From Pseudoalteromonas distincta (GTDB taxonomy: Bacteria > Pseudomonadota > Gammaproteobacteria > Enterobacterales > Alteromonadaceae): a stretch of DNA of 64,000 nt. The notes below the pieces were generated by a model. It was not told the origin of the DNA and searched no databases. It saw only the letters and a list, made by a program, of their open reading frames with translations. Of this stretch, positions 55,389 through 61,405 are shown piece after piece. Numbering within the stretch: the first letter of the stretch is position 1; the number at the start of each line of letters is the position of its first letter. A program made the translations under genes and the position numbers. Where the stretch lies: NCBI RefSeq assembly GCF_000814675.1, contig NZ_JWIG01000001.1, positions 384,471 through 448,470 on the forward strand. Reading direction: 5' to 3'.

Positions 55389-56738
55389 TTAACCTAAATT
55401 ATCAACATCAATATTATGCTTTTTAATCAACTTATAAAAATCTGAGCGATTGCGCTTGGCAAGCTTAGCGCCTTCAGCTACGTTACCACCTGCCATTTTT
55501 AAAGTGTTAATTACATAGTCGCGCTCAAACTCTTTTTTAGCGTCGTTTAGTGATAATGGTTCTACGTTTGTTTCGTTACTATTTAGCGCAGCTAACACTA
55601 AGTGCTCTGAAATAACATCGCTTGGCGTTAATGCTACAACTTGCTCTACTACGTTTTGTAATTGGCGGATATTACCTGGCCAATCGTAACGTACAAGCGC
55701 ATGCATAGCATCGCTTGCAAAGTGTTTTTCAGTCTGGTTCATGCGCTTAGCAATGCTTGCACTAAAGTGCTGTGCTAATAAGCTTATATCTTCGCGGCGT
55801 TCACACAGTGGCGGTAATTTTAAATTAACTACGTTTAAGCGATAGTATAAATCTTCTCTAAATTGCTGGTTTAAAATAGCTTCAGGAAGATTTTTATGTG
55901 TTGCCGACACTATGCGTACATCAATTGCTATCTCTTCTTGAAAACCTACTGGGCGAATTGTTTTTTCTTGTAATACGCGCAGTAACTTAACCTGTAAGTT
56001 AAGCGGCATATCGCCAATTTCGTCTAAAAATAACGTGCCACCCTGTGCTTGTTGAAACAAACCTTGGTGATCTTTAATTGCACCCGTAAACGAGCCTTTT
56101 TTATGACCAAATAATTCGGACTCTAAAAGCTCCCCAGGTACAGCGCCGCAGTTAATTGCAACAAAAGGGCCACCGCTTACATGACTATGCTGATGAATCG
56201 CCTGTGCGAGTAGCTCTTTACCAGTACCACTAGCCCCCGAAATAAGTACATTAACTTGCGTTGGCCCAAGTAGTTTTACTTGCTCTAACAAGTGCAGCAT
56301 TGCACCACTGCGCGTAACTATATTACTTTTAGGTGCAGCTTCATCGGCGTTAACACCATGAATTTCTATCGCTTTAGCAAGGCTGTCAAATAGCTCATCT
56401 TTATCCACTGGTTTAGTTATAAATGCAAAAATGCCCTGCTTAGTTGCCTCTACGGCATCAGGAATTGAGCCGTGCGCTGTCATCATAATGACAGGTAATG
56501 CTGGGTAGCGGCTTTGCAGCTGACGATGCAGTGCCATACCATCCATTTCATCCATGCGTAAGTCGGTTATTACGGCGTCAAACACTTGGCTTTTAAGTAT
56601 TTGTAGTGCGGTTAAGCCGCTTTCGCAGGTTGTTACTTCGTATCCTTTTGATTCAATACGAATAGCGAGCAGTTTTAATAAGCTAGCGTCGTCATCTACG
56701 AGTAATACTTTTGCACCTTGTACTTTAGTTGCGGCCAT
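55389..56738 (-). CDS. glrR: Sigma-54-dependent response regulator GlrR (QseF)
   Basis: 449 residues: receiver with Asp59 (VITDLRMDEMDG), a AAA+ sigma-54 activation domain with Walker A ISGASGTGKELL, the sigma-54 contact loop KGSFTGAIKD, and LFLDEIGDMPLNLQ; then a Fis-type helix-turn-helix (GGNVAEGAKLAKRNRSDFYKLIKKHNID), a close match to the C-terminus of E. coli GlrR. Phosphorylated by GlrK, it should activate promoters of the -24/-12 class. A TGTC-N10-GACA site and a sigma-54 promoter lie just beyond glrK (58857-59039). It follows the qseG-like gene at 2 bp. Confidence 0.95.
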   Translation of the reverse strand: MAATKVQGAKVLLVDDDASLLKLLAIRIESKGYEVTTCESGLTALQILKSQVFDAVITDLRMDEMDGMALHRQLQSRYPALPVIMMTAHGSIPDAVEATKQGIFAFITKPVDKDELFDSLAKAIEIHGVNADEAAPKSNIVTRSGAMLHLLEQVKLLGPTQVNVLISGASGTGKELLAQAIHQHSHVSGGPFVAINCGAVPGELLESELFGHKKGSFTGAIKDHQGLFQQAQGGTLFLDEIGDMPLNLQVKLLRVLQEKTIRPVGFQEEIAIDVRIVSATHKNLPEAILNQQFREDLYYRLNVVNLKLPPLCERREDISLLAQHFSASIAKRMNQTEKHFASDAMHALVRYDWPGNIRQLQNVVEQVVALTPSDVISEHLVLAALNSNETNVEPLSLNDAKKEFERDYVINTLKMAGGNVAEGAKLAKRNRSDFYKLIKKHNIDVDNLG

Positions 56739-56740
56739 CG

Positions 56741-57286
56741 TTACTGCTCCTTCGTTTCTTCTCGTAGTAAAAGTTGCTGCTCAATCGTTGCTAACGATGA
56801 GAGGGTTTCTTGCATTTTATTATTAAGTGCTTGCTGCTCTTTTTTAGCATTTATTTGCATAGTTACTTGCTGCTTTTGAAGCCATAAATATTGCTTTATG
56901 TCATCAGGCCAAAAGTAAGCAAGATCGATTTTTAGCAACTGAGTCATTACCGTATTTGGATCATCATTTATGTTTAAGCACATGAACTTAAAAAAGCGTT
57001 TAAGCTCGTTTTCGCCTGTAAAAACATCTTTGCTAGGTACCAATTTGAATCCACCACACTGATTAGCATGCCATGCAATAACCTGCTCTGCAGGAGGATA
57101 GCTTGGTTCAATTTTTGGTCTAGGTTTTGGACTAGGGTTACTGTTTTTGTCGGTCGTTTTTTTTGTATCGACCACAGGTGCAGGTGTAATTGACACACGC
57201 TCTTCTTGCCCATTATTAATTTCACAACCTGATATAACCATGCTGCTACTGAGCACACATAAAATAGCGATTAAACGCAAGCGCAT
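56741..57286 (-). CDS. qseG: QseG-like outer-membrane lipoprotein
   Basis: 181 residues: signal peptide with lipobox SGC (VISGCEINNG), a Pro/Lys-rich linker, a middle with AWHANQCGGFKLVP, and a C-terminal coiled coil. Its position between glrK and glrR, 1 and 2 bp from each, is that of QseG in enterobacteria, where the lipoprotein binds the sensor kinase and tunes its activity. It is shorter than the E. coli protein (about 237), so the name rests mainly on context. Confidence 0.8.
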   Translation of the reverse strand: MRLRLIAILCVLSSSMVISGCEINNGQEERVSITPAPVVDTKKTTDKNSNPSPKPRPKIEPSYPPAEQVIAWHANQCGGFKLVPSKDVFTGENELKRFFKFMCLNINDDPNTVMTQLLKIDLAYFWPDDIKQYLWLQKQQVTMQINAKKEQQALNNKMQETLSSLATIEQQLLLREETKEQ

Positions 57287-57287
57287 G

Positions 57288-58745
57288 TTAATTAACTCCT
57301 AGATTTTTTGTTATGGGAATTTTAATTGAAAACCGGCAACCATGTGGCTCGTTATGCTCAACACTAAGTGTACCTCTTAGCTGTTCAACAGACTCTTTTA
57401 CAATAGTTAAACCCAGTCCACTGCCTTGCAGCGTAACATTTTTACTGTGTTTACCTTGATAAAATGCGCTGAAAATTTGAGTTTTTTCTTGCTCTTTAAT
57501 ACCGCACCCTTTATCAATCACAACGATACAAAGCTGGCTTTGCTCAAGCGCTAAATTAATAGTAACGCTTTGCTTATCTTCTGAAAATTTTAAGCCATTT
57601 GAAATAAGCTGAATTAAAATCATCTCAATAAGCTCACTAGGTAAAGCAAGCGGTTTGTTCGGTAAAGTATTTTGCCACTGCAGAGCTTGCTGACGCGCAG
57701 TTAAGCGATGCTCAAAATGGCTATTAATTTTATTAATAAGAAGACTAAATTCAACTTCGCTTAAGCTGTCTTTACTGGTGCGAATCGCATTATAACTCAG
57801 CAAACTGTCAATCATTGTGCGAAGGCGCACCATAGATTGGCTAATGAGCTCAAGCACCGCTTTTTGCTCAGCGGTAATTGGGCCTACTATTTCATCAGTT
57901 AATAAATCAGTGCCTTCAACCATTGAAGCAAGCGGCGTTTTTAGCTCATGAGTTACATGGCGTAAAAAAGTATCTTTTTGCTGCTCAAGCATATGAAGCT
58001 GTTCTTGTACCCATTGGAGCTTTTCTCCTAGCTCAACAAGCTCAGCTGAACCTTTCACAGATATTTTTTGCTGCCAATGCCCCTGCCCAAGCTTATCAAT
58101 AACCGTAGTTAACCCTTTTAGCCGCCCACTTATGCGCCATAAAAAACCTCCCCCAACAATTAAAGTCAGTGGAATAAGTGCCACCAGCCAGTTTATAAAT
58201 GACGCTTGCAGGCTTGTAAGCTCATTTTGGTTATTGGTAATTTGCGCTTCGTTTTTATCACGTAACCATAAAGTAAGCTCAGCAATTAAATCGCTCACTG
58301 GCACAAATAGCTCAGCTTGTTGTTGTTTTTGCTCAACGAGTTTTACATGCGCGGTTTGTAAGGTGGTATATAAGCGTTGCCATTGGTGAATATACTCCTT
58401 ATTCGTGTTTACAAATTTGAGTTCATCAATGCTTTGTAGGGATGATTGCCATTTATCGACAATGAGCTTATCTAGCGATTCACTTTTTAATACCCAGTTT
58501 TGCCTAGTGGCGCGCTCAAGGCTGTTGAGCTCTTGCTTTAAAGTGTTAAACGATTTGGTAACTTGGTAGTTGCTACTCACAATACTTTGAGTAACCGCTA
58601 ATTGCTTATTAAGCGCATTTAAAAATACGATCACCACTATAGAAAGCGGAAGTAGCGAAAGCAGCATACTCATTGCAAATTGCCCAATTAAATTAGGCCG
58701 CCAGTTAAGCATTGCTTGGTATTTTTTAGCTATGGTTGCTGGCAT
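57288..58745 (-). CDS. glrK: Sensor histidine kinase GlrK (QseE)
   Basis: 485 residues: helix near 22-46, a periplasmic helical sensor of about 135 residues, helix near 183-205, HAMP (LTTVIDKLGQGHWQQKIS), HisKA with His266 in HVTHELKTPLASM, and HATPase with GKHSKNVTLQGSGLGLTIVKE. Partner of GlrR; in enterobacteria the pair responds to envelope conditions and controls the sRNA GlmY and rpoE. First gene of the glrK-qseG-glrR operon; divergent from the EF-hand genes. Confidence 0.95.
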   Translation of the reverse strand: MPATIAKKYQAMLNWRPNLIGQFAMSMLLSLLPLSIVVIVFLNALNKQLAVTQSIVSSNYQVTKSFNTLKQELNSLERATRQNWVLKSESLDKLIVDKWQSSLQSIDELKFVNTNKEYIHQWQRLYTTLQTAHVKLVEQKQQQAELFVPVSDLIAELTLWLRDKNEAQITNNQNELTSLQASFINWLVALIPLTLIVGGGFLWRISGRLKGLTTVIDKLGQGHWQQKISVKGSAELVELGEKLQWVQEQLHMLEQQKDTFLRHVTHELKTPLASMVEGTDLLTDEIVGPITAEQKAVLELISQSMVRLRTMIDSLLSYNAIRTSKDSLSEVEFSLLINKINSHFEHRLTARQQALQWQNTLPNKPLALPSELIEMILIQLISNGLKFSEDKQSVTINLALEQSQLCIVVIDKGCGIKEQEKTQIFSAFYQGKHSKNVTLQGSGLGLTIVKESVEQLRGTLSVEHNEPHGCRFSIKIPITKNLGVN

Positions 58746-58856
58746 TTCGTTTAGTCCTTTTAAGTTAAGCGTTCTATTATTAAGTGCTTACCTTATACAC
58801 TAGCTGAACCAGCAATTATATTTAATACGATTAACAGCCAGCACTACAAAACAATG

Positions 58857-58874
58857 TGTCGCCAAATAGAGACA
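58857..58874. promoter_or_regulatory. GlrR-type upstream activating site
   Basis: TGTC-GCCAAATAGA-GACA is a perfect match to TGTC-N10-GACA, the GlrR recognition pattern described for E. coli. It lies about 165 bp upstream of the sigma-54 promoter at 59023 and 112 bp from the glrK start. Confidence 0.75.
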
Positions 58875-58877
58875 ACG

Positions 58878-58890
58878 TAACTCGTTGATT
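58878..58890. promoter_or_regulatory. IHF-type binding site
   Basis: TAACTCGTTGATT fits YAANNNNTTGATW, the reverse complement of the IHF consensus, at every defined position. It falls between the GlrR-type site and the sigma-54 promoter, where DNA bending is needed. AT-rich DNA yields such matches by chance, so the placement carries most of the weight. Confidence 0.5.
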
Positions 58891-58922
58891 TTAATAAACT
58901 CCCTTTTAACCCCATTAAATAG

Positions 58923-58940
58923 TGTTGCAAAAGGCGCACA
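58923..58940. promoter_or_regulatory. Degenerate second GlrR-type site
   Basis: TGTT-GCAAAAGGCG-CACA matches TGTC-N10-GACA at 6 of 8 defined bases and resembles the first site beyond the half-sites too (TGTxGCxAAA). 66 bp downstream of site 1. Confidence 0.4.
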
Positions 58941-59022
58941 AAAATTACAATAAACCCAGTAAAAACTTCTCACTGGCTTAAAGCTAAAACAATAACCAGT
59001 TGAAAAATAACAACAATTATTA

Positions 59023-59039
59023 TTGGCACCATTTTTGTA
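59023..59039 (+). promoter_or_regulatory. Sigma-54 (-24/-12) promoter of the EF-hand genes
   Basis: TTGGCACCATTTTTGTA carries TTGGCAC at -24 and TTG at -12 with the required 10 bases between GG and the next G; only the -12 C is replaced by T. It points rightward; transcription would begin near 59050, about 25 bp before the first EF-hand start. Confidence 0.75.
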
Positions 59040-59075
59040 ATAGGAGTAATAACTTTAATCAATAAGGAAATAATT

Positions 59076-59309
59076 ATGAACAAACGCATTTTAGTAATTT
59101 CATCATTACTGGCTTTAGGCTTTTTAGGCGCTAATGCACACGCAATGGACGTTCACGCGACTTTTAACGAACTTGATAAAGACAGTAACGGCACATTAAG
59201 TGAAGCCGAAGCAGGTGAAGATGCTGTGTTACACGAGAATTTTTCTCAAATTGATACTAATCAAGATGGGCAATTGTCGCTAGATGAATTCAAAAAATTT
59301 ATTCAATAA
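59076..59309 (+). CDS. Secreted EF-hand calcium-binding protein 1
   Basis: 77 residues: signal peptide ending NAHA, then two EF-hand loops, DKDSNGTLSEAE and DTNQDGQLSLDE, both with Asp/Asn at positions 1, 3, 5, Gly at 6 and Glu at 12, so both should bind calcium. A calmodulin-like pair in the periplasm or outside the cell. AAGGAAAT precedes the ATG. First gene after the sigma-54 promoter and probably the head of the transcript. Confidence 0.9.
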   Translation: MNKRILVISSLLALGFLGANAHAMDVHATFNELDKDSNGTLSEAEAGEDAVLHENFSQIDTNQDGQLSLDEFKKFIQ

Positions 59310-59333
59310 ACTCATTTAATAAGGAACGTGATT

Positions 59334-59561
59334 ATGAAACAACTTATAGCCGCTTTTTCATTAATGTTTTTAGCAATTAGTGCCACCGTAATTGCATCGC
59401 CAACAAATGTGCGTTTTGCCCACTTAGATAAAGACATGGACGGACAAATATCAATTGCAGAAGCAAAGGAAGACAAGGAAGTAATGAGACAATTTGCCGA
59501 CTTAGATGAAGACGGTGATGAAAAGGTCTCAAAAAAAGAATTTGAAAGCTTTAAACCTTAA
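59334..59561 (+). CDS. Secreted EF-hand protein 2
   Basis: 75 residues from the ATG at 59334, which has AAGGA 8 bases upstream; a GTG at 59328 is less likely. Signal peptide to about Ala22, then loop 1 DKDMDGQISIAE (canonical) and loop 2 DEDGDEKVSKKE, where position 6 is Glu instead of Gly but the acidic ligands remain. 24 bp after EF-hand gene 1, same operon. Confidence 0.87.
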   Translation: MKQLIAAFSLMFLAISATVIASPTNVRFAHLDKDMDGQISIAEAKEDKEVMRQFADLDEDGDEKVSKKEFESFKP

Positions 59562-59747
59562 TGAGTAATTACTGATTAAGCTTTACTTAAGCTTGTTATA
59601 GGTAAACTGGAATTAAAAGCATTTGCCATAATCCCTGAGGGAGTGTGTAAAAGGATTTAATGTTGGGAGTTAAATTACGGCAAGTGCTTTTTCCTTTTCA
59701 CTTTATTTTAGCCACAAACTTTAAATACATCTTTTGGAAGGAACACC

Positions 59748-59984
59748 ATGAAGATACTTCCCCTTACTATAAGCATCTTAATGCTATTAAGCTTTGATGC
59801 CGCTGCACTTGATGTAAAGCAACGCTTTGATCACCTCGATAGCGACAAAAGTGGCTATTTAACGCATGACGAACTTGCTCCCCAACCACAACTATTAAAC
59901 ACATTTGTAAAATGGGACAAAAACCAAGATAACCAAATTTCGCTAGTCGAATTTAAAAGTTATCTAACTAACAACCTTTACTAA
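59748..59984 (+). CDS. Secreted EF-hand protein 3
   Basis: 78 residues: signal peptide ending DAAA, loop 1 DSDKSGYLTHDE (canonical) and loop 2 DKNQDNQISLVE, with Asn at the usual Gly position. TTGGAAGGAACACC gives a strong ribosome binding site. A 186-bp gap separates it from EF-hand gene 2, so it may have its own promoter; I see no second -24/-12 element there. Confidence 0.87.
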   Translation: MKILPLTISILMLLSFDAAALDVKQRFDHLDSDKSGYLTHDELAPQPQLLNTFVKWDKNQDNQISLVEFKSYLTNNLY

Positions 59985-59993
59985 GTGATTTGT

Positions 59994-60230
59994 ATGAAAA
60001 GTATTAGCTATATAACGCTGCTGGCGTTTAGTATTTTTAGCACATTTAGTTTTGCCGCAAGTAATGACATTGCAAAGCAATTTAAAAAGCTAGATAGGAA
60101 TAAAGACGGTTTTTTATCACGTTCAGAAACCGCTATAGACCCGGCTTTATGGTCACGGTTTTCAAGCTACGATAGTGACAAAGACGGTAAATTAGCATTA
60201 AATGAATATGGCTTATATGCAAGTAAGTAG
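59994..60230 (+). CDS. Secreted EF-hand protein 4
   Basis: 78 residues from the ATG at 59994; the GTG at 59985 directly after the previous stop is an alternative. Signal peptide ending SFAA, then loop 1 DRNKDGFLSRSE and loop 2 DSDKDGKLALNE, both canonical. Coupled to EF-hand gene 3 with essentially no gap. Confidence 0.87.
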   Translation: MKSISYITLLAFSIFSTFSFAASNDIAKQFKKLDRNKDGFLSRSETAIDPALWSRFSSYDSDKDGKLALNEYGLYASK

Positions 60231-60286: not shown

Positions 60287-60739
60287 TCAGGCTTTATCTT
60301 TAGAACAATGCGCCAAATACTCTGCATCAGTAGGTTTTGGGCTCACCATAAAATCCATTTTGAGATAAGTTAGAACAGGTTGATTACTCGTATTTTCAGT
60401 TGTCGCTTTCCAGCGCCATAAACCCACAGCAGCTGCCGCATTATTATCAAACACGCCCTCTGGGTAAGACGAGATAACCTTATACCCTTGTGCTTTACCT
60501 TGTGAATTAATTAACATAGCAAACTCAACACAGCCTGAAATGCTTTTCTTTGCAGCTTCTATCGGATATCGCGGCTCAACTCTTTTAGCAACATCCCAGT
60601 ATTCACCTACCTTACTTCGCAGTTCAGGACTTGATAAATCAATAAAACTCGGCATTTCATCGTTTACTTGTTTATCAGACATAGAGCTACAGGCTGTCAG
60701 CATCATGCTCAAAGGGAGTAATAAATAGAGGGCTTTCAT
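60287..60739 (-). CDS. TonB C-terminal-domain-like lipoprotein A
   Basis: 150 residues: signal peptide with lipobox TAC (MLTACSSM), then a TonB-type C-terminal domain: VEPRYPIEAAKKSISGCVEFAMLINSQGKAQG, VISSYPEGVFDNNAAAAVGLWRW. The energising N-terminal part of TonB is absent, so this is a stand-alone periplasmic or outer-membrane-anchored domain, as in many TonB-family proteins of unknown role. A paralogue lies upstream on the same strand. Confidence 0.82.
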   Translation of the reverse strand: MKALYLLLPLSMMLTACSSMSDKQVNDEMPSFIDLSSPELRSKVGEYWDVAKRVEPRYPIEAAKKSISGCVEFAMLINSQGKAQGYKVISSYPEGVFDNNAAAAVGLWRWKATTENTSNQPVLTYLKMDFMVSPKPTDAEYLAHCSKDKA

Positions 60740-60916: not shown

Positions 60917-61405
60917 TCAGTAGGAGATTTTTTTAATTTTACCTGTTACTTGAAATGTTTCGCCAGCCGGACAATTTTTTAGATATTTTTTACCTACAGG
61001 TATTGAATCAATCATAAAATCAATTCTAATATGAGTAAGTATAGGTTGTTTGGTTGTATTTACGGCAGTAGGCAGCCAGGCCCATGTATTTAAAGATCGC
61101 GCTGCGGCTTCATCAAATAACCCTTTAGGATATGAGGAAATTACTTTATACCCTTGCGCCTTACCCTCAGAATTAATGATAGTCATGAGTTCTACACAAC
61201 CTGCAAGACCCTTTTTTGCAGCTTTTATTGGATATCGTGGTTCTGTTCTTGTTAAAATACTCCAATAGTCTTTCACCCTATCGCGCAGCTCAACACTTGA
61301 TAAATCTATATAATCTATTTTTTCAACAGTTTTCTCTGTCGTAGGTGTTGCTCCACATGCCGCAAGTAATGAAGTTAATGGGAGTAATAAATAGAGGGCT
61401 TTCAT
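60917..61405 (-). CDS. TonB C-terminal-domain-like lipoprotein B
   Basis: 162 residues, paralogous to lipoprotein A: same MKALYLLLPL start, lipobox AAC (LLAACGAT), then TEPRYPIKAAKKGLAGCVELMTIINSEGKAQG and VISSYPKGLFDEAAARSLNTWAW. The C-terminus is longer and basic (VTGKIKKISY). The near-identical start against more diverged bodies suggests duplication followed by selection or conversion at the 5' end. Function unknown. Confidence 0.82.
   Translation of the reverse strand: MKALYLLLPLTSLLAACGATPTTEKTVEKIDYIDLSSVELRDRVKDYWSILTRTEPRYPIKAAKKGLAGCVELMTIINSEGKAQGYKVISSYPKGLFDEAAARSLNTWAWLPTAVNTTKQPILTHIRIDFMIDSIPVGKKYLKNCPAGETFQVTGKIKKISY

Follow-up and report, generated by a model that had tools for sequence, protein, structure and literature searches.

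A predicted GlrR and sigma-54 promoter design linked to small exported EF-hand genes beside glrK in Pseudoalteromonas

The control region described here lies on contig C1 of a 4.53-Mb Pseudoalteromonas genome, within a window of 64,000 nucleotides (the whole stretch of DNA analysed). A three-gene operon on the minus strand, encoding a sensor kinase, a lipoprotein and a sigma-54 activator, is divergent from four EF-hand genes that start at 59076. Among named proteins, the nearest relatives of the kinase come from Pseudoalteromonas. The 330-bp gap between glrK and the EF-hand genes holds, in this order, a predicted GlrR/QseF-type operator (O1), an IHF-like site, a second predicted operator (O2), a second IHF-like site and a -24/-12 element of the sigma-54 type (Table 1). 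Every element named in an earlier, sequence-only reading of this DNA (O1, IHF site 1, O2, the promoter and the four EF-hand genes) was found again at the same position, and IHF site 2, absent from that reading, is added here. Sites for IHF were matched against the consensus WATCAANNNNTTR, to which the sequence at 58878-58890 conforms exactly on the minus strand. All four small ORFs between 59076 and 60230 have Pfam EF-hand matches, genes 2 and 4 having been scanned from GTG codons at 59328 and 59985, respectively, and each of the four carries, as judged by eye, an export signal, together with one or two canonical EF loops. The genome also encodes rpoN.

Table 1. Genes and predicted control elements of the glrK/EF-hand locus, with positions in the window.
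Feature	Position	Strand	Description
Sigma-54 activator GlrR	55389..56738	-	55% identity to E. coli GlrR
Lipoprotein in QseG position	56741..57286	-	Lipobox by eye; same gene position as QseG
GlrK-like sensor kinase	57288..58745	-	HisKA and HATPase_c
Operator O1, GlrR/QseF-type (predicted)	58857..58874	no strand	TGTCGCCAAATAGAGACA; exact TGTC-N10-GACA
IHF-like site 1	58878..58890	-	TAACTCGTTGATT on + strand; exact consensus match
Operator O2 (predicted)	58923..58940	no strand	TGTTGCAAAAGGCGCACA; one good half-site; fits TGT-N12-ACA
IHF-like site 2	58993..59005	-	TAACCAGTTGAAA on + strand
Sigma-54 -24/-12 element	59023..59039	+	TTGGCACCATTTTTGTA; -12 part TTGT
EF-hand gene 1	59076..59309	+	77 aa; two canonical loops; Pfam EF-hand matches
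EF-hand gene 2	59334..59561	+	75 aa from ATG; one canonical loop, one with the position-6 glycine replaced
EF-hand gene 3	59748..59984	+	78 aa; one canonical loop, one with the position-6 glycine replaced
EF-hand gene 4	59994..60230	+	78 aa from ATG; two canonical loops

Three further features of the locus were noted. On the glrK side of the gap, the block ACCTTATACACTAGCTGAAC (58784-58803) is nearly invariant across an alignment of 42 relatives and is perhaps part of the glrK promoter. Two similar small lipoproteins are encoded in tandem at 60287-60739 and 60917-61405, the first of which matches TonB_C. A small RNA or attenuator was considered for 59562-59747, between EF-hand genes 2 and 3, where the sequence could form a long hairpin with T residues after it. 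This was rejected: the stretch does not fold better than its shuffles (z -0.59), is present as a single copy in the genome and has no Rfam match at the gathering score.

When the 330-bp gap was shuffled 5,000 times with dinucleotide composition preserved, TGTC-N10-GACA arose in six shuffles and TTGGCAY-N5-TTG in three, and the two together in the right order in none; the named elements of the gap are real and not the product of chance. Across the genome, TGTC-N10-GACA on its own is not enriched (19 sites against 40 for a reversed control) and was rejected as a genome-wide marker, so that position, layout and conservation must carry the claim. The motif first read as TGTC-N10-GACA is indeed present, but its conserved form proved to be longer, TGTYGC-N6-GCRACA. 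With up to two mismatches allowed, this longer form was likewise rejected as a genome-wide marker, its count lying near background (529 against 491); discrimination within the genus was reached by combining the exact operator with a -24 element at a fixed distance. In the window's own cis promoter, O1 departs from the longer form at one position and O2 at three.

A GlrK-like kinase (best E ≤1.4e-51) is encoded in 87 of the 108 genomes of the genus, the remaining 21 yielding kinase matches of 1e-20 to 1e-24 only. By identity, these 87 kinases comprise 47 at ~65% or more, four at ~46% and 36 at ~29-35%, and we examined 60 of their loci (the 47 close relatives, the four intermediate ones and nine of the 36 divergent ones). 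A GlrR-like gene comes next after the kinase in 60/60, and 57/60 have EF-hand ORFs on the side that the promoter faces, the exceptions being L078, L097 and L109. The sequence-only reading had named conservation in relatives with an unchanged gene order as a check on itself, and this check bore it out: 45 of the 47 close relatives have the promoter (≤1 mismatch to TTGGCAY-N5-TTG), and in nearly all of them the operators and IHF sites are arranged alike. Among these 45, O1 was found with ≤2 mismatches to TGTYGC-N6-GCRACA in 43 and O2 with ≤3 mismatches in 42 as the best match in a 45-position stretch, both operator counts being best matches within a stretch of ~50 positions taken without a shuffle control. 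IHF site 1 occurs with ≤1 mismatch in 37/45, where shuffles expect 1.4, and IHF site 2 in 42/45, where they expect 3.8. The O2 half-site, TGTTGC/GTTGC, is conserved across the alignment of 42 relatives, which omits L057, L074, L078, L084 and L097, all of them included in the count of 47. Both L078 and L097 have kept glrK and lost the promoter together with the cis EF-hand genes. Spacing between the operators and the -24 element mostly takes one of two forms, with O1 and O2 standing either ~155 and 90 bp or ~165 and 100 bp away. The two forms differ by one helical turn, which would fit an activator bound to one face of the DNA.

The sequence-only reading had also proposed a search pattern with TTGC at -12, and here it erred. 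The window has TTGT, and in the 45 relatives with the promoter TTG is followed by T (37) or A (8) and in none by C, so that a search with TTGC would have missed all 45. The GG and the spacing of the GG-N10-GC signature are kept, with GT or GA replacing GC. Such a fixed TTGT/TTGA in 45 loci of one genus is an unusual departure from the sigma-54 consensus; the psp promoter of E. coli is a validated sigma-54 promoter with GT at -12.

The exact operator TGTYGC-N6-GCRACA occurs at four sites in the window's genome. Two of them lie before further EF-hand clusters, one at C18:105890 (two genes) and one at C27:16800 (three genes), and both are accompanied by a sigma-54 element at matching spacing and by IHF-like sites; the other two lie at the end of a gene (L112) and inside a coding sequence (L114). 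Five EF-hand loci were found in this genome and an operator-promoter pair at three of them, with neither operator nor sigma-54 element detected at the EF-hand locus on contig C31. A lipoprotein with about four EF-hands (L237, C22:171435) has the sigma-54-like sequence TTGGCATTGGATTTGTA 59 bp before its start and a poor GlrR site with three mismatches.

Across the genus, the operator followed after 65-95 bp by TGGCA gave 138 matches in 93 of 108 genomes, against nine for the reversed pattern, and 99 of the 138 were exactly 97 bp long. We inspected 50 of these matches, comprising 30 with loci returned and 20 picked by hand and spread over genomes. An EF-hand ORF starts within 300 bp of 43 of the 50 (25/30 and 18/20; one at 254 bp), and none of the seven with no such ORF has TTG spaced exactly as a -12 element would be. 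As a control, 1,300 random placements were made in 13 other loci of the window's genome, and 0 fell within 300 bp of an EF-hand ORF. Matches of 96-97 bp were present in 83/87 genomes with GlrK against 3/21 of the others (Fisher p = 6e-14, which overstates the case because the species are related). Similarly, EF-hand_5 matches were present in all 22 GlrK genomes tested (3 to 12 in each) against 3/21 genomes lacking GlrK, the latter possibly forming one related group, so that both sets of co-occurrence counts overstate independence.

Some of these loci also carry a direct repeat of the type CTTAAT-N5-CTKAAY, which we take to resemble the PmrA/QseB box. It is found in six of the nine divergent kinase loci (L102 and L106-L110) and in nine of the 30 pattern loci (L197, L202, L204-L206, L212, L215, L221 and L225), in all nine of which the GlrR site begins 24 bases ahead of the repeat. 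The repeat may point to another regulator acting on these EF-hand genes.

Comparison with E. coli places the locus beside a known system. The identity between the two GlrR proteins extends over 440 residues, and the best NCBIfam match of the window's protein is GlrR at 600.9 bits, below the cut-off of 763; its recognition region reads RNRSDFYKL against RNRTEFYKL in E. coli, a nearly identical helix. GlrK is 29% identical to that of E. coli. The lipoprotein in the QseG position is without useful BLASTP similarity to E. coli QseG and has no Pfam or NCBIfam match; its likeness to QseG-like proteins is confined to a C-terminal tail, over which 37 columns align by profile (hhalign probability 87, E = 3.8e-6). 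The operon had been read as GlrK, QseG and GlrR: this stands for GlrR and for a GlrK-like kinase, but the 'QseG' shares the tail only.

Upstream of E. coli glmY, two operators match at 12/12 and 11/12 positions and lie 63 bp apart, with a weaker one at 9/12; the IHF-like sequence TAACTCATTGATT follows directly after the first operator, and TTGGCACAGTTACTGCA is present in the same region. The glmY control region aligns with that of the window at a score of 227, against a maximum of 202 and a mean of 122 (sd 16) in 2,000 shuffles, and the operators stand 169 and 106 bp from the -24 element in glmY compared with 166 and 100 bp in the window. The window locus resembles glmY/glrK-qseG-glrR of E. 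coli in its orthologous GlrR, its matching operators, the IHF site after the first operator, the sigma-54 promoter and a target beside glrK. The target itself differs: in E. coli it is the sRNA gene glmY, immediately upstream of glrK and on the glrK strand, whereas here it would be the divergent EF-hand genes and further clusters in trans. The glmY promoter, moreover, has TGCA at -12 where the window has TTGT. Searches for GlmY (Rfam RF00128) gave no match in the 64-kb window and none in the 108 genus genomes, with a positive E. coli control and strict filters that lose weak matches. GlrR and GlrK are treated in PMC8895600 and PMC6075780, the latter describing QseF, with IHF, as binding three TGT-N12-ACA sites and activating glmY and rpoE from sigma-54 promoters, and reporting a third operator and an overlapping sigma-70 promoter at glmY. 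Two putative IHF sites and three putative QseF sites are given for the corresponding region of Proteus mirabilis (PMC8745638).

We consider it highly probable that these bacteria have an EF-hand regulon under the control of GlrK/GlrR, sigma-54 and IHF, run from the slot in which enterobacteria keep glmY. In such a regulon, GlrK would phosphorylate GlrR, which would then bind both O1 and O2; IHF would bend the DNA after each operator, and GlrR would activate sigma-54 RNA polymerase at 59023-59039, the predicted promoter for transcription of the four small exported EF-hand proteins. GlrR would also act in trans on at least two further EF-hand clusters of the same genome. We favour this explanation because of the promoter's conservation (45/47), the trans pairs, the excess of operator-promoter matches (138 against nine), their position before EF-hand ORFs (43/50), the distribution of EF-hand_5 (22/22 against 3/21), the constant presence of GlrR (60/60), the likeness to glmY and the presence of rpoN. 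Control of the EF-hand genes by GlrK/GlrR, as the sequence-only reading had suggested, thus gains support from genomic comparison in the form of conservation, trans pairs and an EF-hand content that follows GlrK, and the link reaches further than the cis genes considered in that reading. A search of the open-licence literature found no paper linking GlrR/QseF with EF-hand proteins, or Pseudoalteromonas with EF-hand proteins and RpoN. EF-hand genes are among many lowered ones in a Bradyrhizobium rpoN study (PMC13207237), and the available text of a comparative sigma-54 study names glmY and contains neither EF-hand nor calcium (PMC3162934).

What the proteins do is a weaker part of the explanation: they may be periplasmic Ca2+ binders that buffer the divalent cations of the envelope or report on them, and we hypothesise that a divalent-cation envelope response is their physiological role. 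Among solved structures, a profile built from nine EF-hand proteins finds calmodulin-type domains, and the best 60 of 458 solved relatives are mostly calmodulin and other calcium-binding proteins. In all 236 loops, drawn from 174 ORFs, position 1 is D and position 12 is E, as found with a loop pattern that itself limits what shows. Both observations speak against the same regulon serving a role other than calcium, whether with another metal or structural, which we regard as somewhat unlikely; in its favour are NCBIfam matches to lanmodulin, though weak ones (at most 34.7 bits, where the cut-off is 135), and several second loops that, by eye, lack the position-6 glycine. By description, the window's proteins are like EfhP of Pseudomonas aeruginosa, an exported protein with two EF-hands, which binds Ca2+ with a Kd of 13.7 uM and is predicted to be periplasmic (PMC9132961); control by GlrR or sigma-54 goes unmentioned in the available text of that source. 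They are also like CaBP of Caulobacter vibrioides, an EF-hand protein of the periplasm with a link to a stress regulator, which differs in its 133 aa, its three EF-hands and a circuit with sigV and not sigma-54 (PMC13171946).

The operators could instead serve another sigma-54 activator of the NtrC family, several of which usually coexist, with glrR a mere neighbour. We judge this very improbable, given that QseF/GlrR reportedly uses the glmY operators of E. coli (PMC6075780), with which the operator here agrees at 12/12 and 11/12 positions, that promoter matches and EF-hand genes alike track the presence of GlrK, and that the GlrR-like gene accompanies the kinase at every genus locus examined. 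That the operators control glrK itself, with the EF-hand genes as coincidental neighbours, is hardly credible: the gap is common to both transcription units and the conserved block lies on the glrK side, but the sigma-54 element points at the EF-hand genes, the trans operator-promoter pairs stand before EF-hand genes with no glrK beside them, and L078 and L097 keep glrK yet have lost both EF-hand genes and promoter.

Beyond the genus, the GlrK/GlrR-controlled EF-hand regulon that we propose becomes harder to trace. In an order-level sample of 40 kinase loci, a GlrR-like match adjoins the kinase in 38 (one locus is cut by a contig end), and 18 have an EF-hand ORF no more than 2 kb away on the upstream side, where it is either divergent or placed as glmY is. 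The same family supplies 19 of the 40 loci and 15 of these 18. An operator matching at least 11 of 12 positions was found within 450 bp upstream of the EF-hand ORF in 10 of these 18, and no upstream-side EF-hand ORF was found in the three f18 loci, where GlrR is 83-93% identical to that of E. coli. The operator-promoter pattern is weakly enriched at the level of the order (57 rows against 16 reversed), and of 28 pattern loci inspected beyond the genus only L248 precedes EF-hand genes; with 1/28, a wide trans regulon outside the genus is not seen. Four loci of another genus in the same family (L243-L246, genus g19) combine an operator with a canonically spaced sigma-54-like element and show no EF-hand ORF within 1.4 kb, so that GlrR-type promoters may have other targets. 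The points against the regulon are thus the imperfect cis operators, the -12 element without its usual C, the weak enrichment in the order, the single EF-hand locus among 28 and the g19 loci.

We also offer, as a rather doubtful extension, the view that GlrK/GlrR is in origin a system for divalent cations at the envelope, with periplasmic EF-hand proteins as its earlier output in this part of the Gammaproteobacteria, and that in enterobacteria this promoter module, still in its slot beside glrK, was turned to driving glmY. The EF-hand proteins might then act as calcium-loaded reporters, feeding back on GlrK via the QseG-like lipoprotein.

To our knowledge, small bacterial EF-hand proteins with a known regulator are rare. 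Here, one promoter design is common to EF-hand genes across most species of a large marine genus and recurs in trans, which suggests one regulatory module carrying different cargo by lineage: protein genes in these bacteria and a small RNA in enterobacteria. Induction of the EF-hand genes would offer a direct route to what GlrK senses in Pseudoalteromonas.
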